Shown here one piece after another: positions 2-22,145 of a DNA stretch of 22,145 nt. Position 1 is the stretch's first letter. The number at the start of each line of letters is the position of its first letter. The DNA is from a virus. The translations under genes and the position numbers were made by a program. Below the pieces are notes generated by a model. That model did not search any database and was not told the origin of the DNA. It worked only from the letters and a program-made list of their open reading frames with translations. Location: positions 1 through 22,145 of IMG/VR virus record IMGVR_UViG_3300046002_001658, one strand, 5' to 3'.

Positions 2-43
2 GCGGTAGCAGCAGCAACAGGTGCGGTAGCAGCAGCGACTGGC
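2..43 (+). repeat. 21-bp tandem repeat encoding AVAAATG twice
   Basis: Bases 2-22 and 23-43 encode the same heptapeptide AVAAATG. They differ at three bases, all in third codon positions and all synonymous. A degenerate continuation (AAAGAPAG) follows at 44-67. The array may extend upstream of the window. Confidence 0.7.
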
Positions 44-814
44 GCGGCAGCAGGGGCCCCTGCAGGGGTAGCTTCTGCATTAGCTAGCGGGGTAAATGCT
101 TTACCGGGTGGTCAAAACGCAATATCTGCTGTAGTTAATTATGCCAAGGGTGCGACTAATGCTATCCCGGGTACGGCTGCTATAGGAGCGCTACTTACTA
201 ATACAACCACAGCAGTTACAAACGGGATATCATTACCTAATTCAATTTCGGGTGCAGTTGGCTCTATAACTGGAGCTGCTTCTAATCTATTGAGTAAAAC
301 TACCGGAGCAATTTCAGGCGTATTTGATAAGCTCAAATCAGGAACTACAAGTTTAGCATCAGTTGCTACAGGCGGACTGCCAAGTGCGGACGCCGCTCAA
401 CTTAATGCTGCTGTCGCCGCGCTCGGATCCGGTGGAGCATTCCCTATTAAATTACCTACAGTAGGATTGAACACAACAGATAGAAGCGCAATAGATGGGC
501 AAATTGGATCATTATTGGGGGCAGGTATTCCCAAGCCCAATTTCTCTGGAACAATTTCTGCCGCAGCAGTTTCGGCTCAGGCAGCTAATTTAGCAAAAGC
601 AGAACCAATCGCCGCAGCACTGGCTGAAATACAATCATTGCAGGATAAAGCTACCGTTGCTAAAGATCGATTTCAGGAGCTATCAAACACGTTACCACAG
701 GGTGATCCTCAAATTGCGGCAGCTAGCCAAGAACTAGCGTCATTGACCAAAGAGGTAACAGACAAGCAGTACGCTGAATTCGTAGCTAGTCAACCACGCG
801 CATACCGTATATAA
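2..814 (+). CDS. 3' end of an Ala/Gly/Thr-rich virion protein, unidentified
   Basis: The reading frame is open from the first bases of the window, so the true start lies upstream. Leu-98 of the visible part is a TTG codon at 290, but it is not the natural start because the frame continues well before it. It ends with tandem TAA codons at 812-817. The visible 270 residues fall into two parts. The first is low-complexity Ala/Gly/Thr/Ser with an AVAAATG heptad repeated at the very beginning. The second, from about 540, is more helical and richer in charge and Gln (ELASLTKEVTDKQYAEF near the end), possibly a coiled coil. No transmembrane segment or enzyme motif is visible. It sits directly before gene 25, where related phages carry baseplate hub or spike genes such as gp5 or PAAR proteins, so a tail or baseplate role is plausible. 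I do not recognise the family; it shows none of the octapeptide beta-helix repeats of T4 gp5. Confidence 0.75.
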   Translation, partial: AVAAATGAVAAATGAAAGAPAGVASALASGVNALPGGQNAISAVVNYAKGATNAIPGTAAIGALLTNTTTAVTNGISLPNSISGAVGSITGAASNLLSKTTGAISGVFDKLKSGTTSLASVATGGLPSADAAQLNAAVAALGSGGAFPIKLPTVGLNTTDRSAIDGQIGSLLGAGIPKPNFSGTISAAAVSAQAANLAKAEPIAAALAEIQSLQDKATVAKDRFQELSNTLPQGDPQIAAASQELASLTKEVTDKQYAEFVASQPRAYRI

Positions 815-831: not shown

Positions 832-1281
832 ATGCCATCATATATCGGATTCAGCACAATAGGCGCAAATAAACCAAAGACCACTAACGCAGGTGGAGGG
901 GTTGATGGTGGTGTCGGTACCATCTTAAAACCTGTCAACACGGGGAAGAAATTTAGATTGGTTGATTATCCACTAGTTATACAAGACCTGATGAATGCGT
1001 TGAATATTAGGCAAGGACAAAAAGTAGGACAACCGGGATATGGTACTTCACTGTGGTCTTTTGTATTCGAACCCAACACCGCTGATGTTCAGTTTCAAAT
1101 AGAAGCAGAAATTCGTAGAGTAGCCAGTCTGGATCCTAGACTACAACTAAATTCAGTTAAAGCCTTCCCGCAAGAACACGGAATATTGCTTGAAGTTGAA
1201 ATGTCGGTCACCCCATTCAATAATGCTCAGATATTGAGTGTGTTCTTTGATAGCAATACCAGTCGAGCCGTAATACAATAA
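832..1281 (+). CDS. 25: Baseplate wedge subunit gp25 (TssE-like fold)
   Basis: The product is 149 aa; T4 gp25 is 132 aa. gp25 is an inner baseplate wedge protein. It binds the gp6 dimer and helps set the handshake that nucleates sheath assembly; TssE is its type VI secretion counterpart. The family signature is visible: RLVDYPLVIQDLMNAL at residues 42-57, then the conserved QPGYGTSLWSFVFEP at 67-81, where FEP leads into the amphipathic helix QFQIEAEIRRVASLDPRL. The DPRL at 101-104 corresponds to the family's 'EPR' region, and an alternating beta C-terminus follows. The first ~35 residues are a Gly/Thr/Lys-rich extension. The start is fixed at 832: an in-frame TAG lies at 826-828 and no earlier initiator is available. 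There is no good Shine-Dalgarno. The gene follows the upstream stop by 17 bp. Confidence 0.93.
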   Translation: MPSYIGFSTIGANKPKTTNAGGGVDGGVGTILKPVNTGKKFRLVDYPLVIQDLMNALNIRQGQKVGQPGYGTSLWSFVFEPNTADVQFQIEAEIRRVASLDPRLQLNSVKAFPQEHGILLEVEMSVTPFNNAQILSVFFDSNTSRAVIQ

Positions 1282-1338: not shown

Positions 1339-4300
1339 ATGGCGACAAGCGCAAGACAATCTTCCCTATTCGGTGTAAATGACTGGAAAGCTATTTACCA
1401 AACATTCAGAGAAGCTGATTTTCGTAGTTTTGATTATGAAACGCTTCGTAAGAGTTTCATCGACTATCTGCGTGTCTATTATCCGGAAACGTTTAATGAC
1501 TTTATTGAAAGTTCAGAATTTATTGCAATTCTGGATGTCATGGCGTTCATGGGTCAAGGTCTCGCATTTAGAAACGACTTAAACGCCAGAGAAAATTTCA
1601 TTGACACTGCTGAGCGTAGAGACTCCGTTGTTAAACTAGCCAACTTAGTAAGCTATACTCCTAAACGAAACTTAGCTGCGCAGGGATATTTGAAAGTAGT
1701 TAGTATTCAAACCACTCAGAATATCTCTGATTTGAACGGGGTTAATTTAAGCAATCTTCCAATATTATGGAATGACCCGGCAAACGCTAATTGGGCTGAA
1801 CAATTTAATACTATTATTAATGCTGCATTGATAAACACACAGCGGGTAGGTCGCCCGGGCAATCAGGCTGATTTATTAGGGGTGACTACTAGTGAGTATA
1901 CTCTTAGTATTCCGGCGGATAATATCCCTGTAGTGCCATTCACCTCAACAGTAGACAGCCTCAATATGAATTTTGAGCTAGTAAGTGTTACAAGTGTAGA
2001 TAAAGATTATATATATGAAATTCCACCGATCCCATCGGGTAGATTTAATATGCTATATCGTAATGACAAATTAGGATATGGTAGTCCAAATACCGGATTT
2101 TTCTTTTACTTTAAACAAGGTGGCCTACAAAATTCTGATTTTAACTTAGAGCAGCAGATTACCAATCAGGTAATCAACATAGATATTCAGGGCATCAACA
2201 ATACTGACACATGGCTATATCAGCTTAGCGACAACAATGGCACCAGCGCACTTTGGAAACAAGTTGAGAATGTCTACGCCGATGCTTATCTGCAAACTGA
2301 AACTAGTAACAGAGCAATCTTTGCAGTAACTTCTAGATTTAACGATCAAGTAAGTTACACGTTTGGTGACGGGGTATTCTCGGAAATCCCAGTTGGAGCA
2401 TTTAGGGCATATGTTCGGGCTGGTAATGCGCTTACCTACACCATCGACCCGTCAGAAATGCAGGGCATCTCTATAACATTCTCGTATCTTAGCAGAGTGG
2501 GTAGAGTGGAACAATTAACAGTTGGGCTAGAATTACAGCTGCCAGTCTCTAACGCTCAAGCAAGAGAATCATTAGCAAGCATTAAACAACGGGCACCTAC
2601 TAGATACTACTCGCAAAATCGTATGGTCAATGGAGAAGATTATAATAACTTCCCTTATACACTATACAGTTCAATTCTTAAAAGCAAAGCTATTAATCGT
2701 AGCTCGATTGGTGTTTCTAAAAATCTAGACCTACTTGATCCAACGGGAAAATATTCAAGTTTAAATTCGTTTGCTACTGACGGTGCAATTTGGCAAAATG
2801 ATACCACCGATAGTCTAGCATTGACTATTAATTCTATCGGTAACATTATCACATTCCTGACTGACACCTTAGCTTCCACATTGTCATCTAATCGTGCGAT
2901 ACAATACTATACGCAAAATTATGCTACGTATTCAGTTGACGATTCAGGAACTAATACAGTTTATTGGCAAACCAGTTCAGTAGACGCTAGCTCGGTAACA
3001 GGATATTTTTACACTAAAGTAAACAATGTCAACACTCCGATCGGATTGGGTACGTACTCCACAACCAATGTAAAGTACATCACAACCGGCGCGCTTCTCA
3101 AATTTACTGCACCTCCTGGATATTATTTTGATAGCAATAATAGATTGGTAGCTGGCATTGCCGGCCCGTCAGATATTACTTCGATATGGACAACAGTTCT
3201 TAATGTTATTGGTGATGGGTACAATAACGGGTTAGGTGGGTTTACTAACGGTACTGGGCCAGTCACGTTAAACGGATATGTACCATCTAGCACACCGACA
3301 ATTACGGTATTACCATCGTTTGATAATACGTTAGCGAACGAGATTATACAGGAATGTATTACTAGAATGGAGTTACAACAGAACTTCTCACTGGTGTTTA
3401 ATAACGCATTAACAGTGAATCAGCTTCGTTGGAGTATCAATCAATACAACGATGTAAATTACTTTGTCAACTTCTTAAGTTTAGGTGGTAATAGATATAG
3501 CATTACATCGCGTTCATTAGCATATTATTTTGGTAGTGTAAAAGATACTAGATTCTCATTTGAACGAGATAAATTGGTGTATGATCCCTTCTCTGGAAAG
3601 ATTTTACAAGATTTTATTAAGGTGCTAGCTACTAATACACAGCCTAGTTCTAATTATCCACTAGCAACTTCTGTTTCGGCTAACATTGTTGGGCAGACTG
3701 TTGAATCAGATGGATATATCAATGATTTTGAAGTAGAGATATCAAGCACCGATATTAATAATCGTGGCTTAATTTTAAATCCTACATTCTTTCAAACAGT
3801 CACTGGATATGTATCTGGTAATACAAACATTGGTATATATGTCTTTTTTGAACTAATAGAGGACGCACTAAGTCTGTCTAGATATCAAATAGTGCCGTCA
3901 ACTGATGTAGTTTACACCTATCCTACTAATACCCAAGTAGAAGTTTCCAAGTATGATTATCCACTAGGACAGATATTCTACGCATATGCTGAAAATATAT
4001 TTTATATTACTGTGCAGGATATTACGGTATCTACGCCGTATTATGTCTTAGTACCGCAGCCTCAATATTCTACTAAACCCGGGCGACAAGGTCTGCAGTT
4101 CCAATATCGGCACAACTCTAATAACACCACTCGTATAGATCCAGCAACTACTAATATTATAGATTTGTATGTAGTAACGCAAGCATATTATACAGCATAT
4201 CAAAATTGGATACAAGACACTACAGATACAATACCACAACCAAATCAGCCAACTATTAGTGAATTGAATCAAGAATACGGTGAAGTAAATAATTACAAAA

Positions 4301-4707
4301 TGCTGAGTGATAGTGTTATTTTAAACAGTGTTGTCTTTAAACCATTATTTGGTCCTAAAGCAGCACCTGCACTTAGATCAACTATCAAAGTAATTAAAGC
4401 CTCTAACACGAACGCTAGTGACAGTGAAATTCGTAGCGCAGTACTTACGGCTATGAATAATTATTTTTCAATTAACAATTGGAATTTTGGAGATACGTTT
4501 TACTTCTCAGAATTAAGTGCATATCTGCATTCGGAAACAGGGGAACTAATTAATTCAGCAGTATTAGTTCCCAATGACCCAACAATGGCTTTTGGAGATT
4601 TATATGAAATTAAATGCGCACCGTACGAAATATTTGTAAACGCGGCCACAGCAAATGATGTGTTAGTTATCGCAGCCCTCACCCCAGCACAATTACAAAT
4701 AAGATAA
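1339..4707 (+). CDS. 6: Baseplate wedge subunit gp6, enlarged (baseplate J family)
   Basis: In T4, gp6 dimers form the ring that joins the wedges around the hub and contact gp25, gp53 and gp7. The product here is 1122 aa against 660 in T4. The N-terminus is typical: a helical segment with [19 protein letters not shown], then '[20 protein letters not shown]' and '[19 protein letters not shown]', matching the start of gp6-type proteins. The core follows with [12 protein letters not shown] near residue 342 and '[16 protein letters not shown]' near 426-441, landmarks of the baseplate J-like region. The C-terminal ~130 residues ([17 protein letters not shown] ... [17 protein letters not shown] ... 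VPNDP) match the end of the family. The extra length is mostly Thr/Asn/Tyr-rich beta sequence at about residues 500-1000. The start ATG has the ribosome binding site noted at 1326-1333. It ends 8 bp before the giant gene. Confidence 0.93.
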
Positions 4708-4715
4708 GTACTATT

Positions 4716-7700
4716 ATGGCCACAAGAATTAGAACATTATCATTTCTTCCGGAAATATTCCAAACACCCACTAACGCTCAATTTTTGAGTGCTACCCTCG
4801 ATCAATTGGTATCGCAACCAAATACTAAAAAAATTGAAGGGTATATCGGTAGTAAATTTGGATATGGCATTAATGCCAAAGACTATTATGTAACTGAACC
4901 TACTAAAACTAGGGTTGATTACCAATTAGATCCGGGTGTTGTTTTTACTAAACCCAACGAATCTGTTGCTCAAGATTTTATTAGCTATCCCGGTATATTG
5001 GATGCTCTTCAAATAGAGGGTGGCCTCACTGAAAACAACAACAGACTATTCAATAGTGAATTCTATTCGTGGGATTCATTTACTAACTTAGATAAGATAA
5101 TTAACTTCAACCAATATTATTGGCTTCCTGAAGGTCCTGATCAAGTTACTGTATCTACTGAAACTGTATACAGCAGTACCGCATATGCTGTAACTGATCT
5201 AGCAAACGGATATCAAATCTCTCCTGTGGGTACGGCCGGCGGCACTATAAACCCAACCTTGACAATGCTTCGTGGTGGGTCATATACGTTTGAAGTTAAT
5301 CAAAATTCTGCTTTTTGGATACAAACTGAACCGGGCGTTAGTGGGTATAGCCCTACTCAACCAAATATATATACACGTGAGGTATATGGTGTATCAAATA
5401 ACGGAGCAATGAATGGCATTGTAACGTTCGCTGTACCTAGTAAAACTGCACAAGACGACCAGTATAATTTTCCCGGGAACAATGTTGTTGGTGTAGTAAG
5501 CACATTGCCGTATAGCGACATCAATGGACAACTACTATCGCAAGTGGGAAACATTGACGGGATAACTTCTCTGGACGGGCTAACTGTAATGTTTTACAAT
5601 ACAGGATATCCATCTGAGATTGGATTTGTATCCAACTTCTTTGACTATACTAATTATGATGAAAATAATAACCTAGTTCCAGCAGAAACTATCACAGTGA
5701 CCGATACCAGTGCAACTGGAAATTTAATCACTTGTAATTCTACTGCAAATCTATCAGTAAACGATACTATCACCTTTACCGGAACTACATTCGGTGGAAT
5801 ACAATCTTACTTTACCGGCACACCTACAGTAATAGCTGCCGGGTCGTTTGCTATCGGGCAAGAATATGCTATCACTACTATTGGAACAACGGATTGGATA
5901 GCGGCAGGTGTAACAGCAAGTGCTGACATTACAGGCTCTATTGCTGGATACGCATTAACAGTTACTACAGTAAACTCAGGCTCGCTAGTTATAGGACAAA
6001 CACTAGCAGGATTTGGAGTTACCGCAGGTACAGTAATTGTTAGTTATGATTTAGCTACAGATACATACACGCTAGATCAATCACAAACTGTAGCTAGTAC
6101 TACTATTTACGGGTATGATATTGTAGCGGGTAAGATATTCACTGCGATAGCTGCTGGATCTGGCACCGGCAATGCGACTGCCTTTTTACCAACAATATAC
6201 TATATAAGTTCAATTTCGTCATTGACAGAATTTACTGTCTCCGCTCTGTTAGGCGGTAGCGACGTAGTACTAACCACTGCATCTGGATCAATGATCGGTA
6301 ATATCAATCAAGGTTTATATGAAGAGGGATATTACACTACAGTAAGTCAGACCTTTTACACAATTACTTATGTCGGTGACCCAACGGACCCTGTTATAAG
6401 ATTGATCCCAAGTAGCTCTATACCTACTAATGAAAAGATAACAGCGTTGTATGGTACACAATGGTTGAATAGATATTTCTATAAAAATCCAGCCGGCGCC
6501 ATTGTGTTAATCCCCTACATAACTGCGCCTCTAGATATATTGTATTACCAAGATGGAACTTCAGCTAATAAAGTTGGCATCATTAGATTGATCGAGAGTA
6601 ATGTTACTAACACCTTGGATGTTGATGCTGATATTTTGGGTAGAAAGAATTTCACATCATCAACCGGGATTGTATTTACAAATGGATTGAAGGTGGTATT
6701 TCAGGGAGACATCGTTCCCGCAAGCTATAAATCAGGGCAATATTATGTTGAAGGTGTTGGCAGCGCAATAGAACTAGTACCGGTTTCTGATTTAATATCA
6801 CCCGAAAGTTTTACATCTAGCACATACATACCATGGGATACTCTAGCGTATGATATTGGAAATTGGGAAGGTAACTCGTATGTTCCGGTAACACCCGATT
6901 ATATAACCATATCTAGAAATTCATTAGACAAAAATGCCTGGTCAAGGAGTAATCGTTGGTTCCACGTAGACGTAATCAACGCGGCAGCACTGTACAATAA
7001 CAATCCCAATTCAGTAAGTGTTTATGCTACCGCAGATAATAAAGCTAAACGCCCCATTATCGAATTTTATCCTAACTTACGGTTGTTCAACGCTGGAACA
7101 GAAGGTAAGTCGCCCGTTGATTTTATCGACACCAGAACTATAGATGCATTCTCTTTAGTAGCAGGACAACAAAATTACTATCCTGACGTTACAGTGTACA
7201 CCGCGTATAGCGGAACTATCGCATCTACTGATTATGTATCCGCTAGAATAGCTACTGATACTATCGGTACCGTGGCTCTTCCCGCAGTTTCAAATACTAT
7301 TACTTGCGATAGCACGGTTGGTTTTAGAGTTAATGACCTGATAGTGTTTAATGCGGTTGACTTGGGACCAGTATTTGGAGGGGTCGTAGCTGAAGCAAAT
7401 TATTATGTAAAAGAAATTATTGATTTAGTTACATTCACTATCTCATCTGAACAAAACGGTGATGTATTTGCCTTGTCAAGTTCGTCGGGGTCAATGCGAT
7501 TTTATTGGACACCACGCAGCACTGAAGTTGTAGTAGACAACACCGACGTAACAGGAACATTTGCTCTGGGGCAATATGTTACCGACTCAACTAATTTAAT
7601 ACCAACCAACGCGCTGATAACTGCGATCACCGTAACTACTAGTCAAACGATATTTGAAGTATCGTGGGATGCAAGTTCAGGCAGTTTCTTCGCCGGCACT

Positions 7701-10700
7701 TCCACTGCGTCGATTATAGCAACTGATACCACCAATGACACCTATGCGTTATTTGACGGTGCTCGGGTAGCGTTCACAGTAGATACAGATAAAAATGTAA
7801 GAGATAAGATTTATGTATGTCGTTTTTCGACAGTTACCAGCACTACTGATCCGGTAATTACGTTGACTGAGGCTACTGACGGACAAGTGTTAGTTAATCA
7901 ACAGACCGTTGCATTACGTGGATATTTTAATCAAGGTAACGAATTCTATTTTGATGGTGTGGAATGGATTAAAACACAACAGAAAACTCAAGTAAATCAA
8001 CCACCCTTGTTTGATGTATTCGATGATAACAGCATAAGCTTTGGTGACGCAGAAATTTACACCGGAACTTCGTTTAAGGGAAATAAATTATTCGCATATG
8101 GATTGGGTTCCGGACTTGTAGATGGTATTCTTGGATTCCCTATCCGATACAGCTCCATTGACAACGTGGGTGATATATCATTTGACATATCTCTTAACCT
8201 AGACACATTTAATTATGTTAATGGTTCTTCACCGATCACACAAAAAACCAACACTGGTTATGTGTACAATTACCCAACTCGCGTTGTGTATGAAAGACAA
8301 TTGGGATGGCAGACAGCGATCTCACCGAGCGTACAATATCAAATTTTTGAATTCTCATATAGCACACCATCACCTACTTCAGTGTATATATGTGATATTG
8401 CGCCAATGGATAGTACCACAACAGTCTGGCCTACTATTCAAGTTTACATTAACAATGTACTACAAACCGCTGCAGATTACACTGTTACTACCACTAGTAA
8501 CAGTACTACTGTTACGTTCATTGATCACGCGGTACTTAACCCTGTTCAAATATTAATATTAAGTGACCAAGTTAGTCCTACCGCTTACTACAGTATTCCA
8601 ATTAACTTAAATAACAATCCACTAAATGCAGACGTTACCACAGCAAACGTAGGTGATATTAGAGGACAATATCAAAGTATATTCTATAACAATCCTGACA
8701 CAACTGGAAATGTATTTGGTTCGAACAATTACCGTGACTTGGGTAATGTAGTTCCATATGGCACCCGTATTATTCAAAATAGCGCATCGTTGGTATTACC
8801 TGGCACATTCTTGCGAAAACAAAATCATAATTTGTTTAACTCGTTGATGTTCAACAGCAGAGAATATATTAAATTTAAAACTCTATTAGTTGATACGGTT
8901 AACAATGCGTCTTATTCACAGCGGTATGATCCTGCAACAATGTTGGATGATGCGCTGGATCAGATTGTTGCGTCTAAGACTGAGGAGCAGCCCTTTTTCT
9001 GGAGTGATATGGTGCCATCTAAGGCCCCGTATATTTCCAATTCTTATTCATTCGCAAACAGTTTAGATGTAAGCATTTATAAATTAAGCACCACATACGA
9101 TTTTACTAAAGCAAATTACAATGGCGTTTTAGTATATCTCACACGAACAACAATCGGTGTCACTTCTGTTAAACAACTAATTGTAAATGTTGATTATGTT
9201 ATCAGTACTGATTCACCGTCACTAACGGTAACGCTAGATTTACTACCTAATGACATTATCACCATTAACGAATACAATCAAACATATGGTAGTTATATAC
9301 CTAACACACCTACTAAATTGGGCCTATACCCTGCATATACCCCGGGCGTAGTGTTAGACAGTGATTATGCTCAGCCTACCTATTTTATTAAAGGGCACGA
9401 TGGTTCTTACAATAAGTTGTATGGTAACTATGATGCGACTTTAGAATTACTGATAGACTTTAGAGATCAAGTATTGTTAGAATACGAATTGCGGGTGTTT
9501 AACAACTTAAAGTTAAGTTCAATTATTCCTATTAAAGAATATGAAGTGTTGCCGGGCTTTTTCAGAGAAACCGACTATTCATACAATGAATTCTTAGAGG
9601 TGTATAGCGCATCATTCTTAAATTGGGTTGGACAAAATAGAATCAATTACAAGAGACAACTTTACAACAAGAATGACCAGTTTACTTATAATTATTATCA
9701 AAGTGGAAATAAGATAAACAAGAAACCTATTGAGCAAGGCTATTGGAGGGGAATTTATCAATATTATTATGATACTACTACACCTAACAGTACACCTTGG
9801 GAAATGTTAGGGTTTACCGAGAAGCCAACTTGGTGGCAAGACAGATATGGTCCAGCACCGTATACCAGTGATAACTTGATTTTATGGAATGATTTAGCAC
9901 AGGGAATTGATTGGAATAACGGTGTACCTATTGTAATCAAACAAGCTATTAGACCTGAACTGTTACAAGTATTGCCGGTTGACACTGAAGGCAATCTAGT
10001 ATCACCCCTAGATTCAATAGTAGGCAGTTATAATAGTAACATATTCCAACGTGATTGGAAAGTGGGAGATGAAGGCCCTGCAGAATTAAGCTACAGAAGA
10101 AGTAGCTCTTGGCCCTTCGACCTAATGAAAATATTAGCTTTAGCTAAGCCTGCTCAATTCTTCAATTTAGGTGTAGATTTAGATAACTACAAATATAATC
10201 TTGAATTTGACCAGTATCTAGTTAACAACAGAAGCCATCTTGTTATTAGTGATGTTCAAATATACGGATCAGGTACTGCTAAAACTAGTTATATCAATTG
10301 GATCGTTGATTACGAAAAACAAATTGGAGTAGATGCTACTCAGAATATCACCAACTTGTTATTTAACTTGGATGTTAGATTGGTATATCGCTTAGCGGGA
10401 TTTAGTGACAAAACATTATTAAAATTCTATGTTGAAAAAGGCACAGCAAATAATAGAAATGCGTCCTTATTAATTCCAGACGAAAGCTATGCGGTATTGT
10501 TATATGACAATCAACCTTTTAAGAAGATTGTGTATTCAGGCGTTGTCATTCAAATAGTTGACAGCGGATATACTGTATATGGCAATTCACAAACTGCTGC
10601 ATATTTCAAAACATTAAAGCCATTGGCTAACGGTAATACAAGCATTACTGAAGTGGATGCATTACGGGTAAGAACGGCAAACGACTACTCAACTCAAGAA

Positions 10701-13700
10701 GTAATCGTACCCTATGGTTCGCTGTTCTACACAGTAGAGGAACTAGCACAGTTTCTAAGAGCATATGGAGCATATCAAGAAGCTCAGGGTATGGTATTCT
10801 CATCTATTGAAAATGGTTTAGAAGTTACCTGGAATCAAATGATAGCTGAACTGCTATACTGGGCGCAAACTGGATGGGAAGTTGGCAGTGTGTTGACTAT
10901 AAATCCGGCCGCTAGCACTATGGAAATAAATCGTGACGGGTACATTGTTCAACCGTTAACAATGCGTGAAACTAACTTTGTATTGAATCAGAATTTATAT
11001 CCAATTCAATCAATGGATCTTGCAATTGTGCGCGACGAAACGCAATTTGTTATCAAACCATTAAATGCCGGTGACACCCTTGCGTATGGTCAATTTAATA
11101 TACATAGCATTGAGCATGGCATTGTTTTTGATAACATTACCCTGTTCAATGATGTCATCTACAATTTAACTACAGGTTTGCGTCAACTTCGTATTGTGCT
11201 GCGTGGAACAAAAACTGCTGACTGGAATGGTACGATCAATGCTGCTGGATTTATTCTCAATCAAGATAATATACAAGAATGGAATCGAACATTAACTTAT
11301 ACCAAAGGTGTTATTGTACAGTATAAAAATAAATACTGGACTGCGTTACGAGTAATACAACCTAGCGAGACATTCAACAGCAATGACTGGAAACGGACAG
11401 ACTACGAACAAATTCAAAAAGGGTTGCTACCAAACTCAAGCACTCGCTCATATGAAAGCACATTGTACTATAATGTTGACAAGGCTAACTTAGAATCAGA
11501 TGCTGATTTATTAAGTTTCTCGCTTATTGGATATCGCCCACGTGATTATCTTGCGTTAGCCGACTTAACTGACATTACTCAAATTAATGTATACAAGAAT
11601 TTAATTAAGAACAAAGGAACACTTAACGCTGCTAGTGCGTTCAAGGGAGTTAATCTACCGCAGGGTGGAATTAATTATGAGATTTATGAAAATTGGGCAA
11701 TCAAATCTGGCGAGTTTGGCGGGGTTCTCAACAGCAATTTCGTAGAGTTTAAGATTAATGAAAACTATATGACCGGTAATCCCTCAATTGTGGGATTAAC
11801 TAATGGTGTATACACGGATGGTGTGCAACAAGAAGTACCACTGTACTCACTGTATAACTATGGTAGACCAGTCTTTGATCCAAATGTTTTACCACAGATT
11901 TCATCAGCATTGCCACCAACTTTATTGCCCGATGCAGGCTATGTCAATTTTAATGATGTAAAAATGTCAGCTTTTTATTACTCGCAGTTAGCTAGCGCAG
12001 TTGATAAAAACGGTAAGGTTGTGCCTATACAAGATTTTTATGTTCGAGATTATCTTTGGTTAGCAAATTATCTCGAACAATGGCAAGTATACACACCTGC
12101 TTCTATTGGTCAAGTAATTTATGTAAAGAATAATTTGAATGGTACTGCTACAATAACATTCAATCAGGCGCATAACTTAGTTCAATATCAACCATTCGCA
12201 ATCGTAAACTTCAATCCAGCAGTTAATGGATATTTCTTAGCATCACTAATTGTTGATCCACAGCGAGTATTAGTAAATCTAACTCTTGATGCAAATACTA
12301 GAAACATCACTGGGCAAGGTATTGGACTGTTGTTCCAATCTCAGCGTGTAGCTACCCCAGCCGACATCGCCACACTCCCACTCTTAAGCGCAGAGTTCAC
12401 AAAAAATACAGTATGGGTAGATACGAACACTGATGGTGATTGGGCTGTATATAGAAAGAGTATTAATTACCAGTACGATACTGAAACCATTCGCCCAACA
12501 GGCGTGACCTTTGGTAGTGCGGTAGCATACACTTCAACACTAGGATATTTGGTTGGCGATGCTCAAGCAGGTGAAGTCTATAGATACACCTTTAACGATT
12601 TGGCTAACGACTACCAATTGATTCAAACAATCACGCACGATACTTCATTTGGAGCAACAATCGCATATGCCGGTGATATGTTCTTCATATCGGAACCAAG
12701 CAGCGCGGCTCCTAAAGTATATGCCTATCAGTTAAGCTCAACACTCACTAATGATGATTTAACCTTGTTCCAAACTGCTATTGCTGCCCCTGCAAGTTCA
12801 ATCAACTGGGGTAAGGCTATAGCTGTGTCAGGTGATACAAATTGGGTATACATATCTGACTATGATAATCCTTCGACACCTAACTTAGTCTATGTATACA
12901 GAAAATCACAGACAACGGATGAGTATGAATTGTCAACTACCATCACAACAAGTGGGCTAGTCGCGGGTGATAATTTTGGTTACTCTATTGCAACTGATTA
13001 TTACGGTGATACTGTTATCATAGGTACCCCTAACCAAGACTATAGCCCTACAATTGATAATTGGGGATATACATATGTGTTTTCTAGGGCGGTGCAGAAT
13101 ATAGAAACATCGCAGAATAGTATTCCTGATGTTGCACAAATATTTCAATTGGTATGGACACCTAGCACCACAGTTACTGATGTTAGCGCAACAGATGCGA
13201 CAACAGATGTCATAACTTGCACTAGCACTAGTGGATTTGTAGTTGACATGCCGGTACTATTCTCCGGAACTGTGTATGCTAGCAGCAACATTTCTCCAAG
13301 CACAATCTATTTTATTGAAAGTGTTGTTAGTGCAACTGAGTTCCGTATTAAAACTTCGGTAGATGCTATAATCCCGTTAGCTTTAGGCACTAGTAGTGGG
13401 AGCGGGATGATAGCTAACGTCCAGTCTACTCCTATCTATGTATCAGTTAATGGTACATTAGTAGACAACAGTAATTATGGAGTGATAGGTAATACATTAG
13501 TATATCCTAGCACATTGTCAGCCGGCGATATTGTTACTATAAGCGGAGATCAGTTTACATTAGTTCAAACTCTAACTTCAGAGGTAACACCAAAAGTCGG
13601 AGTTCATTTTGGAAATAGCGTAGATACTACCACCCACGCATCTGAAGTTATCATTGGCGCACCGTTCGAATTGACTACGCAGACAGAAGAAGGCGCTGTG

Positions 13701-16700
13701 TATCGCTATACCAATGGTGGTGGAAAATATGGAATGGTAATCGGTACTACTGACACCAATGTTACCTCTACCAGAACACTGTTAATTAATAATTTTGCTG
13801 TATATATTCCGATCGGAAATGCGACAGTTGCTGCTAATTCTATTTCTCAAGCAGGTATACCAAACATTGTGGCAACTGCTAGCAATGGTAAACTGATTAT
13901 ATCATTAATAAATTATGATTTAGCTATCCCAAATGAAAAGCTATTGATAGCTGTGGTGGATACTACCACATTAACTGAGTTAGGTATTTCAATTTATACT
14001 CAGACACAAACTATCAACTGCCCACACATTACTGGACCTACACAATTTGGTACAGTAGTTAAATTCAATGAATTTGATTCCTTCGTAGCTAGTGCCCCGA
14101 CTGGTACTAGATATGCGGCTACGACCTTTGATTTCACTGATGATGAAAATTTAGACAATGACACGGTGTTTGATAATAACGCAACGCAATGGATAGACCA
14201 GTTTGTTAATGCAGGTGCGGCGTATATGTTTGACTATCTAGCGGTGTTTGGTGAAAATCTAGACAACACTGGTAAGTTTGTATATTCGCAAAGTGTGAAT
14301 GACGTAAATCTAGAGTACGGTGCTCAGCCAATGTATGGTCAAGCAATGGATTTCAACAACTATCACGTTATTGTTGGTACCCCTGCATTTAGACCTGGTT
14401 ATGACAATGGGCTAGTAACATTGTACACTAATAGTTCAGGAATCACTGATTGGTCTGTATATAGAAGCTCAGCAGCAGTAGTTGACATCAACCGAATTCA
14501 AAACATACAGTTGTTTAGCGCAGAAACTAACAACACGCTAATTAATTTAGATTTCATTGATCCGCTTCAAGGGAAAATATTAGGTGCGGCCCGCGAAAAT
14601 ATTGATGTCATATCAAACTCAGATCCGGCTCATTACAATAACACTACGGTTCGTAGAGGGATAATCTGGGGAGCTGAGCACGTTGGTCAACTGTGGTTTA
14701 ACACATCAACAACGCGATTTGTAAATTATCACCAAAATGATGTAACCTACAATAGTAGATACTGGGGCGCAGTCTTCCCGGGGAGTAATGTCACGGTGTA
14801 TAGTTGGATTGCAAGCCCAAATCTACCGGTAAATTATAATGGCCCTGGTACTGTGTTTAATGTAGATTCATATGCTATACAGTATGTAGAGACAGCTAGT
14901 GGTACATTATCACCGATATATTATTATTGGGTGAGAAATACCAATATCATTTTTGAGAAGACTGGAAAGACCTTAGCAGATTCAGTTGTTGAATCATATA
15001 TTGCTCAGCCTAGAAATTCAGGCATAAGTTGGTTTGCACCATTGTTGCCTAGCGCATTTGGATTGTATAACTCTGCGGCCTATATTAACGCAAATGACAG
15101 TGTTCTTCAAATGGGATTTAGCACCGGCACGAATGATGATGTAGCACACAGTCAATATAGTTTAATTAGAGCCAACTACGCTGATGATTTCTTACCGGGA
15201 TTCCCGGGCATAGGTGGAACATTAATTCCTGAATCATTATACGACCGATTGCTAGATGGATTGTGTGGAGTAGATGAATTTGGAGCAGTTGTACCCAATC
15301 CATATCTACCCAAAGCAGTTCAAAATGGAGTGCTAGCTCGACCAAGACAAAGCTTCTTTATCAATAGATTTCTTGCGCTTAAAAATTATCTAACATATGC
15401 TAACACTATTTTAGCACAGTTTCCAATTACTGAAACAAGACAATATTCTTTCTTATTTACTGAGGGTCCAATAAACCCATCAACCGGTACTCCATTCTTT
15501 GTCACTGCTGATTATTGGGAATATGCAAATTGGTGGGCAATTGGTTACAATGATAACACTAAGTCTGCACTGCAAGTGCCACTCTATGCCAATCTACTCA
15601 CGCTATCAGTAGCTGTTAATACTATTGTTACCGTCGCTGCAAACAGTACTGGTAATGCAGAGACTTATATTTACAATACTGATGGGACTTGGACTCGCAT
15701 TGGATTAACGAACGGTACTATTAAATTTAAATCTGATTTGTGGGATTATGCCACTGCACGGATAGGATTTGGAGATAACTTCTATGATACCAATCCATAT
15801 GATGCATATCCGAGTGAAGAGACTAGAAATATCTTACGAGGATTGAACGAACAAATTTATATAAACGATTTACTAGTCTTTAGAAATAAGAGTCTAATAT
15901 TGATGTTTGAGTATATCCAAAGCGAGACTATTGATTCACAAAACTATTTGCCTTGGTTGAATAAAACCTCATTCATTGATGTGTCACACACCATTCGTGA
16001 ATTGCGTCCTATCAGTATATATCAATCAGATAACCAAGACTTTTTGGCAGGATATTTAAATGAAGTAAAACCTTACCACGTGGTAATTAAAGAGTTCTTA
16101 TTTAAATACACCGGTGCTGATGTCTATGCCGGAGATATCACTGATTTTGATTTGCCTGCAATTTTTGATTCATCAGTTCAACAATTCATCACCCCTGAGT
16201 TGGTATACTCTAACCCTAGCTTAGTATCACAGTTTTTACCTAGTAGTCCGATTTGGTCTGATCCAAGTTATATTTCTTGGTATAATAATTATGGGGTAAG
16301 CATTACTGGACAAGACAATGTTCAGATAGCTATATTGGACACCTATATTGCGTTGAATACAACAGCATTCGCTATATCAAACGCTCAGGGAATACCTATT
16401 AATGGGGTATTTAAAATTGGAAATGAACTTATCGCTTATGCAACGGTTGACAGATCAGTCAATGTGGTCAGCGGCCTAACTCGTGGGGTTAGCAATACAC
16501 CTATCACCAATCACATTCCAGGAGAGTTAATATACATTGATTTACCAGCAGTGTTGTTATTAGATGGCGGAAGAGGCTATTCTGAGCCACCGCGTGTAAT
16601 AGCTTATATTGATACGACAATTTACCCAGCACCATCACAGCCTGCGGTATTAGAAGCAGTAATGACATTAGATTCCGTATTAAGTATAACCGTAATTGAC

Positions 16701-19700
16701 CCGGGTCAAGGATATGCAGTATTACCTCAGATTATAATTGATTCTGCTATATCAAGTGAGTTTGCTAGTACAGCAGTCAGTCCAAGCTATAATACCATTC
16801 AATTGTACGCCCCGTTGCTACAAACCGGAGACTTGATCAAGTATACTGTTGGAATTGGTAGCACTGCGATTGGTGGATTGACAAATAATCAATGGTATTA
16901 TGTTAATGTATTAGAGACAGTACCTACTGTTACCGTAGCGTTGTATTCCAATTACAGAGATGCTCTCCAGGATCAAAATAGAATTGTATTATTCTCGACT
17001 GGTACAGGAACTACTCACGCACTAAGTGTAGGAGCTAAAGCATCTTGCATATCCAGTGCGGCCCCTATCAGAGAAAATAATATTGCGTTACGATTTGACA
17101 GAACTACATACAATTCACAAGTAACTGATTGGGAGATGGACCTATATTATGGTTCATACTTTGCCGGATTCGCAGGTGCGTACAATGACCCACAATCAGT
17201 AGCCAGTTCTTCTATACAATTACAAAGTACACAACCGGCTATTAGCACTATTCTGTCCAGTGCCCAAGGGGTAGGCTTTGAAATTGTCGATGTTCGGAAT
17301 GAGCAAACAGTTTCGTATTCTTCACTGATACGCCAAGTTGCTGAAATAATTGCGTTAAATCACGCTATTCGGTTAACACCTCTTGATGATGGCTCTAATA
17401 ATCCAAATGCGTCGGGTTCTACTATTGGTTTCTATGTTAATATGCCAATTGTATTCAAAGGTGCTGTGTTAGGTGGATTGGTAAACGATACAGTGTATTA
17501 TGTTAATAGTATAGTAGATGCTACAGACTTCACTATTTCACAATCAGTAGATGGACCTATCTTTGCTCTGACAGGTGGTACAGTTAGTGCTGCTGGTTTA
17601 GAATGTTCAGTTGGCGAAGTAACTAATCTTGCAGTACTTACGATTAATTATCCAGGCATCTTAGAGGTTACTGCGACTACGACAAGTACTAACACTATAA
17701 CTATTCCGGTTACCTTGGTGGGGACAGGTGGCACTAATGGCTTCTATGTTAACTTACCGGTATTCTTTACAGGAACCGTATTTGGTGGGATAGTTGAAAA
17801 CGAAATATATTATGTTACAACTGTACTCGATGAGCAAACGTTCACTATCGCTGAGTCCAAAGATCCAACAATGTTAGATGTGTCCGCTACTGCTGCTAGC
17901 ACAGACTATGTTACAATATCAACTGATACCCAATCTCTAAAAATAAATGATCCTGTAATTTTTAACTCAATGGTAATACTTGGAGTGGATGTTACCGTGT
18001 TTGGCAACATTGTTTCAGGCACAACATATTATGTTGCTAGCATTCCTAACAATAATTCAATACAATTATCTGCTGTAGTTAACGGATCAGTATTTCCATT
18101 AGCAGATCAGGCTGCTAGCGTAGACCCCTTGCTTCCTACTAACGCAGTATTAACCAGTCAACGAAATGTTGTTCAGTTGTCTACCGCAACAGGAAGTATG
18201 ACTATTAATGTGTCTATCCCGGTTAGCCCTGGTCAGATTAACGGTCAACAATTTACTTTATACAACACTTCAGAGCAATATCCTGACTTGGCAGGACCGG
18301 TTAGTTCATTAGTTACGCGAGAGATACAATCAACTATTGATACCGTAGATAGGGTTGCGATCAGTAGCTACAGTGGTGGATTAACAAACATATATGATAA
18401 TTTTCCATTACAGGTTGAAACAAATATTGGTGGCCTAGTAACAGGAACAACATACTATGTAGTAGATTCTGGATACATTGAGGTAGACGTTACTTCTACT
18501 TCACCATCTATTGCGTCAGCGGTAATTACCGGAGACATACTATCAGGCGCGCCAGTAAGCTTACTAACAGTTACCGGTGTCACATCGGGCGCGGTAGTTC
18601 CGGGCTGTTCTTTGGCCGGCGGCACCGTCATTCCTGGCACTAAGGTGGTCTCACAAATAGCCGGCACACCTGGCGGGGTAGGCTCTTATTTTGTAACAAA
18701 CTCACAAAATGTTATAAGCTCAACACTTACTTGCTCTCTAAGTGCGGTAACTTGTGACACGACTGATTCATTATACATAGGTATGCCGATTATATTCTCC
18801 GGTGTACCGCTAGGCACTATCGATCTCAATGTAGAATATTATGTTAGACATATTGTTAATGGAACACAGTTTGTGCTGACTAATACACCGGGAGGGGCAA
18901 TAACAACCCTGACGGTAGACAACGGAGTAATGACAGGTACCGGATCACCGTACATACAAGTATCAACAAGTCTTGGTGGAAGTGTAGAAGTATTAACTAC
19001 CGAGACTGCGGTAGTTAATTTAGTCCAGTATCCGCTAACACCACCACTATTCAGTGTTAGTTATCGTATGGGTGGCTATCAGGCTATTATCACTGATTCG
19101 GGTACAGGATATGCTATTGATAATACCATCTTAATATCAGGCAGTAGCGTGGGAGGAACAACTCCGAATAATGATCTTACCCTAACTGTTGTGGCAATCG
19201 GGACTAGCGGTGAAATAACAAGTGTTATCAGATCAGGCACAGTGCCTGGTATTTCTGACAGCTATTATTTGCGAGTAATTTCATCTACTGAATTAGCTGT
19301 ATTCTCAAATCCGTTAATGACTGTACCGGTATCAGGTATTGATTTCCCCTATATAGGCATAATCTCAACTACGGTAACCGGAACTACTAGTGGATCAAAT
19401 AGTATTACAGTTAACAGCGTAAGTGAATTTGCAGTTAATGATGCAGTGGTGTTTACTGGATCAGTAGCCGGAGGATTAATATTAGGACAAATATATTACG
19501 TGCTCACTGTATCACCGCTAACTGTTGGTACTGTTCCCAACGATGTTGGTTCTGTTGAAGTGTTGTCTACTACTTTATTGCAAGATTTCACAATGGCTAA
19601 GTATGGCTCATATGCAGTCTTACCGGAACCGTTCTATTTTAATCAGAGTATTGTTCGGTATAACAATAGAGTCTACAGTTGTCTAATTAGCAACCACGAT

Positions 19701-22145
19701 TCTGAATTTATATTTGGTAAGTGGCAGTTGTTAGATTCAGGTGATCGCAGATTAAATGCTTTAGATAGAGTTATTGGTTACTATCAACCGACTGCTAATA
19801 TGCCCGGCTACGACTTAACTCAATTAGTTAGCGGGATACAATATCCAAACAGCACGTATAAAGGCAATGCGTTTGCCCCTGACGAACAGTTCCAAATAGA
19901 TACTATCTTACAGGATCAACCATTCTATCCCACTGAAGTTGATATGAAAGCGATAATCTGGACCGGAACAAGTTACTTTAGTCCTGCTGAAACATCAACG
20001 TATTCGGGTGTTGTGTCGGGCAGTGACGGTGAAAATTGGGTTATTGATAAACTAGCCAACTCAGTGTTAAGTCTGACTGGTATTATATATGTAAATGGAA
20101 TATACCTTATCACGACTACTAACATTGCTACTCCTATCTTACGTAGTACTAACGCGATCACTTGGACTGCTGGAGGCCGCTATATACCCACAGCTTTGTT
20201 ACCGAACGAGTCAGTAACCTTAAGCTCATCAGGTATGGCATTGAATTCTGTTGGGTATCGTGACGGAGTGTACATTGTGGCCGGCAGCAGCATTGCATCA
20301 AGTGTTGACGCATCTATCTGGACAAATAGATTTACGTTCACAAATGGATTGGTTAACACTTTGTACGGCGTTAAGGGAGTGAGTACAAACTCATATTATG
20401 GATTTGTAGCCATAGGTAAAGGGCAGATTCCTGATTATTCAACCGGACTAACTGAAACTATAGATGTAAATCTGGTGCTAACTAGCTTAGACGGTATCTC
20501 ATGGTCACAAAGCCCGGCTTATAGTTTTAATGGGTTTTATAGCATAACGGACAACGGTAATATTATGGTTGCTGTTGGAGAGAACGGTGTTATTTACACT
20601 AGTCAAACTGGCATTGTTTGGCTAGGCGTGAATGAAGTTGCAGTTGTTAGTGTAAATTCTGACACTAATAATATCAACGTTTCTAATACTGATGGATTCT
20701 TGGTAAATGATGAGATTAGATTCTCTAACTCTTTTAACGTAATATCGTCTTCTGTCACCTATTATGTGGTGAACATTATTACCCAATCACAACTTCAGAT
20801 TAGTACTTCATTGGGTGGACTGCCAATCACGTTAAATGATGTTAATCCAAGCACAACAACTTATATGTATTTGTATCCAAGTACAAGTGATCTAAATGAT
20901 GTGTTATTTGATAATTCTATATTTATGGCCGTCGGTAATGACGGGTTAATTAGAACATCGGTGGACGGTTATGTATGGGTAACGCAAGTCTCTGGTACGC
21001 TAGAAAACTTAAATAGTTTGGTATATAACGCGACTGCGGCTACGTGGACTGTGGTAGGTGATAACAACACTATTATTCTAAGCTCTGATAATGGAGTAAC
21101 TTGGACTAGCTCTTCGATATTTGTTGTAGTACCCACTGTGTATGATGTACAGGGTGATCCGTTTCAGGCTGGATATGGTCCTGAGGAACTAGTAGCCGGC
21201 ATCATAAGCGATAACATAACGTTGACAGTGGCTACTAGACCTGGCACAAATTGGCCAGAAACTGTATATCAGCACGTGGGTTATAACGTGCTGTCAATCG
21301 AAATACAACCAACCTCAGCCACTCAGACTGATTACAGTTTTGATTTAGTAGCACAGACCCCGGCGCAACTTGCAGTGTTTGTCATAGACGGCATTACTGG
21401 TACGAGCACCTCGATATACGAACCTGATTACAGTATCGATTGGATTACTAATGTGATAACTTTAGCTATCCCGTTATCTTTCACTCCAATCACTGATACA
21501 TTACGAATTGATGTGTATGAAACAGGAAACGGAAACCAATTGGTTAAGGCTAATACAAAGACAGATCCAATTCGTGTTAATCTAACCACAGGGTGGAATG
21601 AAATATATGTAAATTGTAACTATTCTGCTACTATATTCTCCGGCAGTGGCGTTATTAGACCTGGAACGGCACCCATAGCAGTTGAAGCAATAAAAACTAC
21701 TGCGATAGAGAATACTATTACTTGCGTGGGAGTAAAGGATTTTGTACTTAATGACCCGATAACATTCCAAGGTACTACGTTTGGCAACATATTAGAAGAT
21801 ACTACCTATTATGTTAAAACAATTAGCACAGTAACTAGTAGTATTACTGTATCAAGTTCATATAATTTCACTTCAGGTACTGCAGGTCCTACTTTTGTGG
21901 TTACAACTGCTGTGGGTTCGATGTATGTAGTTATTGCTGTTGGATCGGGCGCGCCGTGGGCTGAACCATTAATGTATCACAATGGTGTGAAATTATTGCA
22001 CGGGTTAACTGGAACAGTCACCAGAACTAAAGCAACAAATAATGCAGTAACCTGTAACACAACAGGTGGGTTGGTAGTAGGTACTGTAGTAGTCTTTAGT
22101 GACACTATGTTTGGTGGGATTATTATACCGCAAACAACATACGTC
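4716..22145 (+). CDS. Giant modular virion structural protein, 3' end outside window
   Basis: One frame stays open for 5810 codons and runs off the window. ATG 4716 is the first initiator after the in-frame TGA at 4656, and there is no clear Shine-Dalgarno. It begins [20 protein letters not shown] with no signal peptide or membrane helix. In order it has: unique start; a 'YTFEV...FWIQT' cupredoxin-like segment (residues ~180-254); a nested module block (~324-530); unique scaffold to about residue 2590, including a Tyr/Trp-rich stretch (9600-9850); an FG-GAP propeller (~2599-3239); 'YLNEVKPYH' (~3790); a module-dense zone (3885-4850); a CBM5/12-like segment (~4970); an Asp-box propeller (~5100-5465); and more modules to the end. 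Cys is rare; Thr, Ser, Asn, Val, Gly and Tyr dominate. It follows gene 6, the T4 gene 7 position, so it is probably an outer baseplate or tail component fused to receptor-binding domains. I see no residue-level proof of gp7 homology. No frameshift is seen. Confidence 0.9.
5253..5477 (+). other. Cupredoxin-like 'YTFEV...FWIQT' domain in the giant protein
   Basis: Residues ~180-254 read [15 protein letters not shown], then FWIQTEPG, then [14 protein letters not shown] and a final YNFPG. This L-x-R-G-x-x-Y-x-F ... F-W-I-x-T ... G-x-V-x-F-x-V-P pattern recurs in phage tail proteins and resembles a copper-protein beta-sandwich. The Cys/His/Met ligands of a copper site are not visible, so it is likely structural. 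Confidence 0.55.
5832..6185 (+). repeat. 'GTTDW ... GSGTGNA' phage module, split
   Basis: The first part is [20 protein letters not shown] plus WIAAG. The second part is [20 protein letters not shown]. Joined, they match the familiar phage tail pattern 'G-x-x-Y-x-I-x-x-x-GTTD-F/W ... G-x-x-F-T-A-x-x-x-G-x-GTG-x-A'. The two parts are separated by the type-3 module at 5913-6113. Confidence 0.65.
5913..6113 (+). repeat. 'LTVT...SG...VGQTL...SQTVASTTI' module, copy 1
   Basis: The segment carries [32 protein letters not shown], and then [17 protein letters not shown]. This is a recurrent phage structural repeat of the form G-x-L-T-V-T...SG-x-L-x-x-G-Q-x-L...G-V-x-x-G-T-x-I...Y-T-x-x-x-SQTV-x-S-T-T-I. 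It is the innermost of three nested modules. A second copy lies at 18525-18734. Confidence 0.7.
7263..7502 (+). repeat. YYV module 2
   Basis: The unit runs [20 protein letters not shown], then [15 protein letters not shown], then VTFTISSEQ and a terminal SGSM. It carries all consensus landmarks, including the ITC cysteine (codon 7305). Confidence 0.75.
7902..8220 (+). other. Conserved-looking scaffold segment '[13 protein letters not shown] ... GLGSG'
   Basis: Residues ~1063-1168 include [50 protein letters not shown] and [18 protein letters not shown]. This region is non-repetitive and dense in aromatic residues. I have the impression it is a shared core of large aquatic-phage structural proteins, but I cannot verify that here. 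No known fold is assigned. Confidence 0.4.
11101..11260 (+). other. Unique scaffold segment '[20 protein letters not shown]'
   Basis: Residues ~2129-2181 contain [20 protein letters not shown], then [20 protein letters not shown] and AAGFIL. It directly precedes the first CBM5/12-like segment and belongs to the large non-repetitive scaffold. No enzymatic motif is visible. Confidence 0.4.
11295..11402 (+). other. Possible carbohydrate-binding (CBM5/12-like) segment 1
   Basis: Residues ~2194-2229 read [20 protein letters not shown], then [13 protein letters not shown]. The pattern Y-x-x-G-x-x-V-x-Y-x-x-x-x-W ... W resembles the short chitin-binding-like modules often found in tail fibres. It is short and may be only a structural beta hairpin. 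Confidence 0.35.
13167..13421 (+). repeat. YYV module 3, inserted in the FG-GAP propeller
   Basis: The unit runs [48 protein letters not shown] and a GSGMI ending. YYV is replaced by YFI, and the FGG loop is altered. It lies between propeller motifs 4 and 5. Confidence 0.7.
13711..14035 (+). other. Insertion between FG-GAP motifs 5 and 6
   Basis: About 108 residues follow the YRYTNGGGK strand and precede FGTVVKF. They include [41 protein letters not shown] and ELGISIY. The I-N-x-x-x-V...N-S-I-x-x-A-G-I-P-x-V-x-A-x-x-x-x-G-K-L-x-I pattern recalls the beta-alpha-beta insert common in flagellin- and tail-type proteins. It is not a YYV module. Confidence 0.4.
15963..16110 (+). other. Scaffold segment '[20 protein letters not shown]'
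   Basis: Residues ~3750-3798 carry [20 protein letters not shown] followed by [18 protein letters not shown]. It is helical, more charged than its surroundings, and free of repeats. It ends the central unique scaffold before the module-dense region begins. Confidence 0.4.
16368..16538 (+). repeat. '[13 protein letters not shown] ... LTRG ... H..G' phage module
   Basis: The segment reads [38 protein letters not shown] and [10 protein letters not shown]. It matches the frequent phage structural module G-x-x-x-I-G-x-E-x-I-x-Y...L-T-R-G-x-x-x-T...H-x-x-G. Only one copy is seen. Confidence 0.6.
16554..16745 (+). repeat. Paired 'GxGY..P' repeats
   Basis: Two half-repeats, [17 protein letters not shown] and [15 protein letters not shown], flank a linker with [11 protein letters not shown]. 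The G-x-G-Y-x-x-x-P-x-I/V-x-I pattern is a well-known tandem beta repeat of phage tail proteins. Here the first copy is GRGY and the second GQGY. Confidence 0.65.
16779..17045 (+). repeat. YYV module 4, divergent
   Basis: The unit has [20 protein letters not shown] followed by [13 protein letters not shown] and an [13 protein letters not shown] ending. The GGL loop and WYYV are retained, but the ITC and FTG elements are missing. Confidence 0.55.
17361..17609 (+). repeat. YYV module 5
   Basis: The unit reads [40 protein letters not shown] and FALTGGTV. Landmarks are F-K-G, GGL, YYV and F-T-I-S. It starts a group of five closely spaced modules (5-9) that runs to about 18944. Confidence 0.75.
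17667..17882 (+). repeat. YYV module 6
   Basis: The unit reads [33 protein letters not shown], then [20 protein letters not shown]. It is closest to module 5: both share GFYVN-[ML]-P-[IV]-[VF]-F, suggesting a relatively recent duplication between these two. Confidence 0.8.
17883..18122 (+). repeat. YYV module 7
   Basis: The unit reads [49 protein letters not shown] and VFPLADQAA. It abuts module 6 without a linker. Confidence 0.7.
18336..18524 (+). repeat. YYV module 8, cut short
   Basis: The unit reads [40 protein letters not shown] and VDVTSTSPS. After YYV only a short strand follows, and the usual F-x-I half is replaced at 18525 by a type-3 module. Confidence 0.55.
18525..18734 (+). repeat. 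'LTVT...SG...[10 protein letters not shown]' module, copy 2
   Basis: The segment carries [40 protein letters not shown], then [18 protein letters not shown]. It is the same fold signature as the innermost nested module at 5913-6113 but a more complete form with the GTPGGVGSY turn. It sits between YYV modules 8 and 9. Confidence 0.7.
18738..18944 (+). repeat. YYV module 9
   Basis: The unit reads [40 protein letters not shown] and [13 protein letters not shown]. It carries the conserved T-C site (codon 18753), F-S-G, YYV and F-V-L. Confidence 0.75.
19083..19265 (+). repeat. 'GTGY ... [13 protein letters not shown]' phage module
   Basis: The segment reads [20 protein letters not shown] followed by [18 protein letters not shown] and [11 protein letters not shown]. 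This closely follows the recurrent tail-protein pattern G-x-GY-x-x-x-D-T-x-x-I-x-G...GG-x-TP-x-ND-L-T-x-T-V. Confidence 0.7.
19368..19573 (+). repeat. YYV module 10
   Basis: The unit reads [20 protein letters not shown] followed by [18 protein letters not shown] and [15 protein letters not shown] and YYV are intact; the last strand is degenerate. Confidence 0.75.
19605..19737 (+). other. Possible carbohydrate-binding (CBM5/12-like) segment 2
   Basis: The segment reads [20 protein letters not shown], then [14 protein letters not shown]. The Y-x-x-x-x-I-V-R-Y-N-x-R-V-Y-x-C-L-x-x-H-x-S-x-x-F-x-x-x-x-W pattern is close to chitin-binding-like modules of phage and bacterial surface proteins. It is the better of the two candidates and lies just before the Asp-box propeller. 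Confidence 0.45.
19960..21120 (+). other. Seven-motif Asp-box (BNR/Ycf48-like) beta-propeller
   Basis: Seven motifs of the S-x-D-G-x-x-W type end in Trp codons at 20037 (GSDGENW), 20163 (RSTNAITW), 20319 (SVDASIW), 20502 (TSLDGISW), 20619 (TSQTGIVW), 20976 (TSVDGYVW) and 21102 (SSDNGVTW). The last is a near-perfect Asp-box. Most repeats contain a G-x-x-Y/F-x-x-V strand with A-V-G-x-N/D-G, as in [13 protein letters not shown]. Intervals are 39-61 residues except the fifth (119), which holds YYV module 11. Seven motifs fit one seven-bladed propeller of the sialidase-type superfamily. No sialidase catalytic set is identifiable, so a binding or structural role is more likely. Confidence 0.65.
20628..20880 (+). 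repeat. YYV module 11, inserted in the Asp-box propeller
   Basis: The unit reads [40 protein letters not shown] and [16 protein letters not shown]. It begins three codons after the fifth Asp-box Trp. Removing its ~84 residues restores a normal blade interval of about 35 residues. Confidence 0.75.
21687..21935 (+). repeat. YYV module 12
   Basis: The unit reads [40 protein letters not shown] and [10 protein letters not shown], with a terminal GSMYVV. It carries the ITC cysteine (codon 21723) and a clear GSM end. Confidence 0.8.
22011..22145 (+). repeat. YYV module 13, cut by the window end
   Basis: The first half is present: [37 protein letters not shown]. The window ends inside the Y-V motif, so the module, and the gene, continue outside. 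Confidence 0.75.

Follow-up and report, generated by a model that had tools for sequence, protein, structure and literature searches.

A giant open frame in the gene 7 position

The window analysed here, a stretch of 22,145 b that makes up an entire IMG/VR record, raises the question of what kind of protein a phage encodes when a single open frame of 5,810 codons stands directly behind two baseplate genes, in the position that gene 7 holds in T4, and of whether so long a frame is a gene at all. The original prediction held that this frame runs from an ATG at 4716 to the last base, directly after gp6, and the ORF list agrees. As the window is the whole record, its end is a contig end and not a gene end, and the giant gene is therefore cut by it. 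The genes in the window are as follows.

2..814, + strand: Ala-rich open frame truncated at the contig start, of which the C-terminal part remains, with a weak tape-measure profile match (phrog_1272, E 0.0025)
832..1281, + strand: gp25-like baseplate wedge protein, 149 aa (Pfam PF04965, E 6.3e-9; phrog_43)
1339..4707, + strand: gp6-like baseplate wedge protein, 1,122 aa (phrog_10646, E 1.3e-255; phrog_219, E 2.4e-21)
4716..22145, + strand: giant virion protein in the gene 7 slot, with an ATG start and an open 3′ end, 5,810 codons in the window

A tandem repeat (2.5 copies of a 21-bp unit) occupies positions 1-53, within the Ala-rich 5′ frame.

The base composition predicts ~383 stop codons over a length of 5,810 codons, and the five alternative frames have 280-634 each; a chance origin of the long frame is excluded. 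The contig was then extended to a stop codon, as the original prediction had proposed, by means of a second IMG/VR contig, 3300044987_000462, which is 99.991% identical with window positions 974-22142 (two mismatches and no gaps over 21,169 b). Its protein equals that of the window at every residue of the common stretch and continues for 710 codons to a stop at position 14278 of the extracted locus (L008:14278), which brings the full protein to 6,520 aa (~709 kDa) and the gene to 19.6 kb. In addition, 14 other complete relatives span 5,889-6,747 aa, with eight assembled from overlapping contig loci at 6,356-6,747 aa and those on six contigs of 230-525 kb at 5,889-6,652 aa. In one IMG/VR scan with the protein core, the frame was uninterrupted over the part present in all 80 homologous loci, and substitutions between relatives were most frequent at codon position 3, then 1, then 2 in nearly every 650-codon bin through to the gene end. 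These data clearly show that the giant frame is a genuine phage gene. A frameshift or an assembly join, either of which could have undone the original prediction, is very unlikely given the near-identical second contig, the 80 unbroken frames and the codon constraint.

One relative lies on a viral contig of 524,565 b (IMGVR_UViG_3300027749_002876), from which it follows that the clade of the giant gene takes in very large phages. No relative turned up when bacterial and archaeal genomes were scanned, which leaves no clue to the host. On the second contig, a 206-aa gene (L008:14447-15067, phrog_11259) and a 408-aa gene with a Peptidase_G2 (intramolecular chaperone) match (L008:15098-16321, Pfam E 6.1e-6) lie just 3′ of the giant gene, and a radical SAM gene (L008:20538-21932) is found further downstream; radical SAM genes likewise come after the giant gene in Atu_ph07 and Phosso.

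Membership of PHROG 10938

That the protein belongs to a virion protein family was confirmed by several comparisons. The profile phrog_10938, annotated as 'virion structural protein', matches in four collinear fragments (E 8.8e-48, 8.9e-104, 1.3e-44 and 1.3e-57), and by hhalign 2,326 columns of the freshwater family aligned with the isolate homologues (E 2e-209). By tblastn 59 phage records matched, those listed all being large phages that belong to the RaK2, PA5oct, Atu_ph07 or related groups. Phage CBB has an orthologue, CBB_236, next to the gp6 gene CBB_237, and MS has detected it in virions with 21 unique peptides and 7.72% coverage (PMC5259590, Table 4). In a BFVD structure search all named strong matches were proteins of the same kind, either uncharacterized or structural (an Atu_ph07 structural protein and proteins of uncultured Caudovirales), and an IMG/VR scan with the Deifobo core as query returned no relative.

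Gene order supports the placement in the gene 7 slot, as originally proposed: gp25, gp6 and the giant gene are consecutive in 80 of 80 homologous contigs, as they are in the window. Among cultured phages, the homologue stands directly after gp6 in RaK2, 121Q, CBB, Deifobo (PA5oct group), Atu_ph07 and Phosso (3,323-4,555 aa), and the 3,047-aa homologue of CM1 is likewise downstream of gp6; in Sinorhizobium phage AP-J-162 a 4,455-aa 'structural protein' occupies the same slot (PMC11242549). Adjacency to gp6 is not universal, since the 3,807-aa homologue of Salicola phage SCTP-2 lies ~92 kb away from gp6. In that phage the gene preceding the giant homologue encodes another protein of 3,096 aa. 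We also considered the aquatic 'moraphage' lineage (2025), for which the parts of the source consulted mention gp25 and gp6 and no giant protein, and offer no link to the giant family (PMC12619734).

The giant protein is thus a large new member of a family of giant tail proteins from large T4-like phages that had been catalogued before.

Conserved blocks and inserted modules

To map conservation, the protein was aligned with eight isolate homologues. Residues 1-180, 720-800, 1020-2400 and 3240-3840 are conserved, and the remainder is mostly insertion. The middle core is conserved family-wide, with invariant columns at 25-32% identity, and an HMM search with the core alignment against PDB sequences remained without a match even at an E-value limit of 10. 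The blocks are located as follows.

4716..5255, + strand: scaffold block 1, residues 1-180, with an LPEIFQT motif near the start (eight-isolate alignment)
6873..7115, + strand: scaffold block 2, residues 720-800 (eight-isolate alignment)
7773..11915, + strand: scaffold block 3, residues 1020-2400, the main core (phrog_10938, alignment; AlphaFold model of 1230-2420)
14433..16235, + strand: scaffold block 4, residues 3240-3840 (phrog_10938, isolate alignment)

Between and after these blocks we found a series of repeats and modules.

5712..5858, + strand: FCCH-like copy 1, residues 333-381 (iterated HMM)
6156..6290, + strand: FCCH-like copy 2, residues 481-525, overlapping an insert that eight complete relatives lack (iterated HMM)
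7287..7493, + strand: FCCH-like copy 3, residues 858-926 (iterated HMM)
9024..9275, + strand: putative beta-sandwich like tail-fibre/baseplate adaptors, residues 1437-1520 (VIA-align on the predicted model)
11265..11405, + strand: CBM5/12-like chitin-binding fold, residues 2184-2230 (Pfam PF02839, E 4.4e-5, below cut-off)
12939..13082, + strand: FG-GAP propeller repeat, residues 2742-2789 (Pfam PF14312, E 1.3e-7)
13197..13403, + strand: FCCH-like copy 4, residues 2828-2896 (iterated HMM)
16332..16751, + strand: RG module (residues 3873-3937) and GYxP module (3946-4012), both also in cyanophage gp7-slot proteins (iterated HMM, hhalign)
17394..22145, + strand: C-terminal extension with FCCH-like copies 5-13, copy 13 being cut by the window end and three more lying beyond it
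20220..21116, + strand: BNR-type propeller repeats, residues 5169-5467 (HMM search)

The most numerous of these is a module of ~65 residues, present in 16 copies in the full 6,520-aa protein and in none in the isolate homologues, both by iterated HMM search. A self-BLASTP of the giant protein showed no repeats, which emerged only with the iterated HMM, and one copy comes near Pfam E1_FCCH with an E-value of 6.5e-6, slightly short of the cut-off. At window positions 5916-6215 (residues ~401-500), a stretch of ~100 residues that is also present in the near-identical contig is almost absent from the eight other complete relatives; judged by these sequences, it is a lineage-specific module insertion.

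The original prediction that propellers and binding modules had been absorbed into the protein was upheld by Pfam, HMM and structural comparisons, which identified the FG-GAP and BNR repeats, the CBM5/12-like fold and the adaptor-like sandwich. The stretch overlapping the BNR repeats recurs in the 'baseplate wedge initiator' of cyanophage DSL-LC03 (E 2e-5). In the predicted model the CBM5/12-like fold superposes on the Milano baseplate chain 8fqc_P1 with an rmsd of 1.1 Å over 45 residues, and it corresponds to a gap in the aligned isolate homologues, i.e. it is an insert. The beta-sandwich gave VIA-align Z-scores of 7.9 with the Kp9 tail chain 7y1c_g and 7.6 with the P1 baseplate chain 9vzk_T; with Z under 8, this modelled likeness to fibre or baseplate adaptor domains is suggestive.

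Relation to T4 gp7 and to the cyanophage giants

T4 gp7 is a multi-domain monomer, present in six copies per tail as a component of the wedges, with the gp6 ring on one side and the periphery on the other (PMC3004832), and the 242-residue gp7 orthologue of the simple phage XM1 joins a gp6-like pair and anchors spikes (PMC10457771). Homology of the giant protein with T4 gp7 did not emerge from our searches: BLASTP gave an E-value of 0.14, which is not significant, profile-profile comparison by hhalign gave a probability of 0.3%, and the N-terminal 200 aa had no profile match to the gp7 core, although an LPE motif near the protein start resembles that of the core by eye only. The following segment gave a match to the KGT part of the gp7 core.

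11595..11675, + strand: KGT motif, residues 2294-2320, weakly like the gp7 core KGT (hhalign E 0.011-0.13, not significant)

Its score was 20.85, against a maximum of 20.72 among 60 column shuffles, and we regard this sequence match as a weak lead towards gp7 and not as proof. An AlphaFold model of residues 1230-2420 was usable (mean pLDDT 76.5), whereas a second one, made for the 121Q KGT region, was of too low a quality for any use (mean pLDDT 49.6). With the former, Foldseek and VIA-align gave single-module matches only, with no T4 gp7 among the matches listed, a result in which an absent match is no proof of absence.

Cyanophages with the same gene order carry proteins of 3,048-7,041 aa in this slot (S-PM2, ACG-2014e, S-SRM01, DSL-LC03, P-HM2, P-SSM2 and S-P4), including S-P4 gp047 (7,041 aa) and those of P-SSM2 (5,195 aa), P-HM2 (gp7, 4,454 aa) and DSL-LC03 (4,107 aa); smaller slot proteins occur in HTVC008M (1,016 aa) and BUCT-ZZ01 (607 aa). 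In Synechococcus phage S-P4 the 7,041-aa frame (L299:112-21237) has no internal stop and gives ~21 GYxP module hits. By hhalign the KGT motif links the cyanophage group to T4 gp7 with a probability of 68%, T4 gp7 matches phrog_2885 with an E-value of 1.3e-4, and a T4-GC969 protein has been detected in S-SM1 virions (PMC3037559).

The size and gene 7 position of the giant protein are therefore already documented in isolated jumbo phages and in cyanophages, one of which has a longer protein still. A reading of the architecture as singular and unusual does not stand, as the same slot holds proteins of 3,047-4,555 aa in the jumbo isolates and of up to 7,041 aa in cyanophages.

Probable role in the baseplate

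Taken together, these data suggest that the giant protein is probably the baseplate wedge protein that a freshwater T4-like jumbo phage encodes at the gene 7 position, and a long orthologue of the PHROG 10938 virion proteins. This reading draws support from the 25-6-giant slot, the phrog_10938 homology, the presence of an orthologue in virions and the types of module, and also from the cyanophage slot giants, which match T4 gp7 by the KGT motif and share the RG, GYxP and BNR modules. Against it, neither T4 gp7 nor a profile of the gp7 core was matched significantly, gp7 was not among the structure matches listed for residues 1230-2420, and the SCTP-2 homologue does not adjoin gp6; moreover, unrelated proteins can come to share modules. 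Of the wedge protein originally proposed, then, the slot, the virion family and the modules stood, whereas homology with T4 gp7 found no significant support and a singular architecture did not hold.

On this wedge reading, the conserved blocks (residues 1-180, 720-800, 1020-2400 and 3240-3840) would make up a scaffold, bound in each of the six wedges to the gp6 dimer in the manner of T4 gp7, and the modules between and after them (FCCH-like, propellers, chitin-binding fold and adaptor-like sandwich) would build the baseplate periphery, where those inserted might contact fibres or the cell surface. The protein would have grown by the addition of modules to the scaffold. Both the contact with gp6 and the function at the surface are deduced by analogy. 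A bolder proposal, that one chain of ~700 kDa took over the wedge scaffold together with much of the T4 periphery (gp7 and the roles of gp8, gp10 and receptor binding), appears unlikely; if true, six copies would amount to about 4 MDa of baseplate.

The strongest competing explanation is that the protein belongs to the baseplate periphery of the virion, or to a fibre or whisker, and is merely encoded after gp6, the gp7 role lying elsewhere or being missing. The lack of demonstrable homology with gp7, the recognizable domains, which are surface and adaptor modules, and the SCTP-2 gene that does not adjoin gp6 all fit such a protein. Nevertheless, the 25-6-giant order is retained across freshwater and isolate lineages, the middle core keeps its invariant columns throughout the family at 25-32% identity, and the corresponding slot of cyanophages is occupied by a gp7 homologue that has some of the modules too, so that we consider this explanation a serious one with a clear minority share of the probability. 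The size and modular layout of the protein might instead point to a polyprotein, a single chain later cleaved into several proteins of the baseplate, and the MS coverage of CBB_236 is low enough to permit such partial presence; yet the frame is always whole although its module content varies, and no cleavage evidence was found here or reported in the parts of the literature consulted, which makes this improbable. That the frame arose from an assembly error or a frameshift, or from the wrong fusion of two genes, has a negligible chance of being correct, for although the window stops inside the gene, the second record with only two mismatches reaches a stop, and the other complete relatives show the same scale of length with codon constraint to the gene end.

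Comparison with known systems

A very long phage open frame is thus established as genuine, with its full length known, and is tied to a named but poorly described family. At least two branches of T4-like phages have giants in the gene 7 slot, which grow by module insertion, and how much of a baseplate a single chain can make up is testable in cultured phages such as 121Q, RaK2 or PA5oct.

With T4 gp7 itself, which at 1,032 aa is six times shorter, the common point is the position after gp6. The closest likeness is to PHROG 10938 of the RaK2-, PA5oct- and Atu_ph07-like jumbo phages, with which the protein is homologous over the conserved blocks of residues 1-3840 and shares the slot after gp6; however, the isolate proteins have 3,047-4,555 aa and no detected FCCH-like repeats, whereas those of the freshwater clade have 5,889-6,747 aa and 11-16 such repeats. 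The giants of T4-like cyanophages (PHROG 2885, 4406 and 701; T4-GC969) resemble it in the 25-6-giant order, in their equally extreme size and in the RG, GYxP and BNR modules common to both families, but most of them begin with a gp7 core (LP...KGT) that matches T4 gp7, a core to which the window protein has no significant match.
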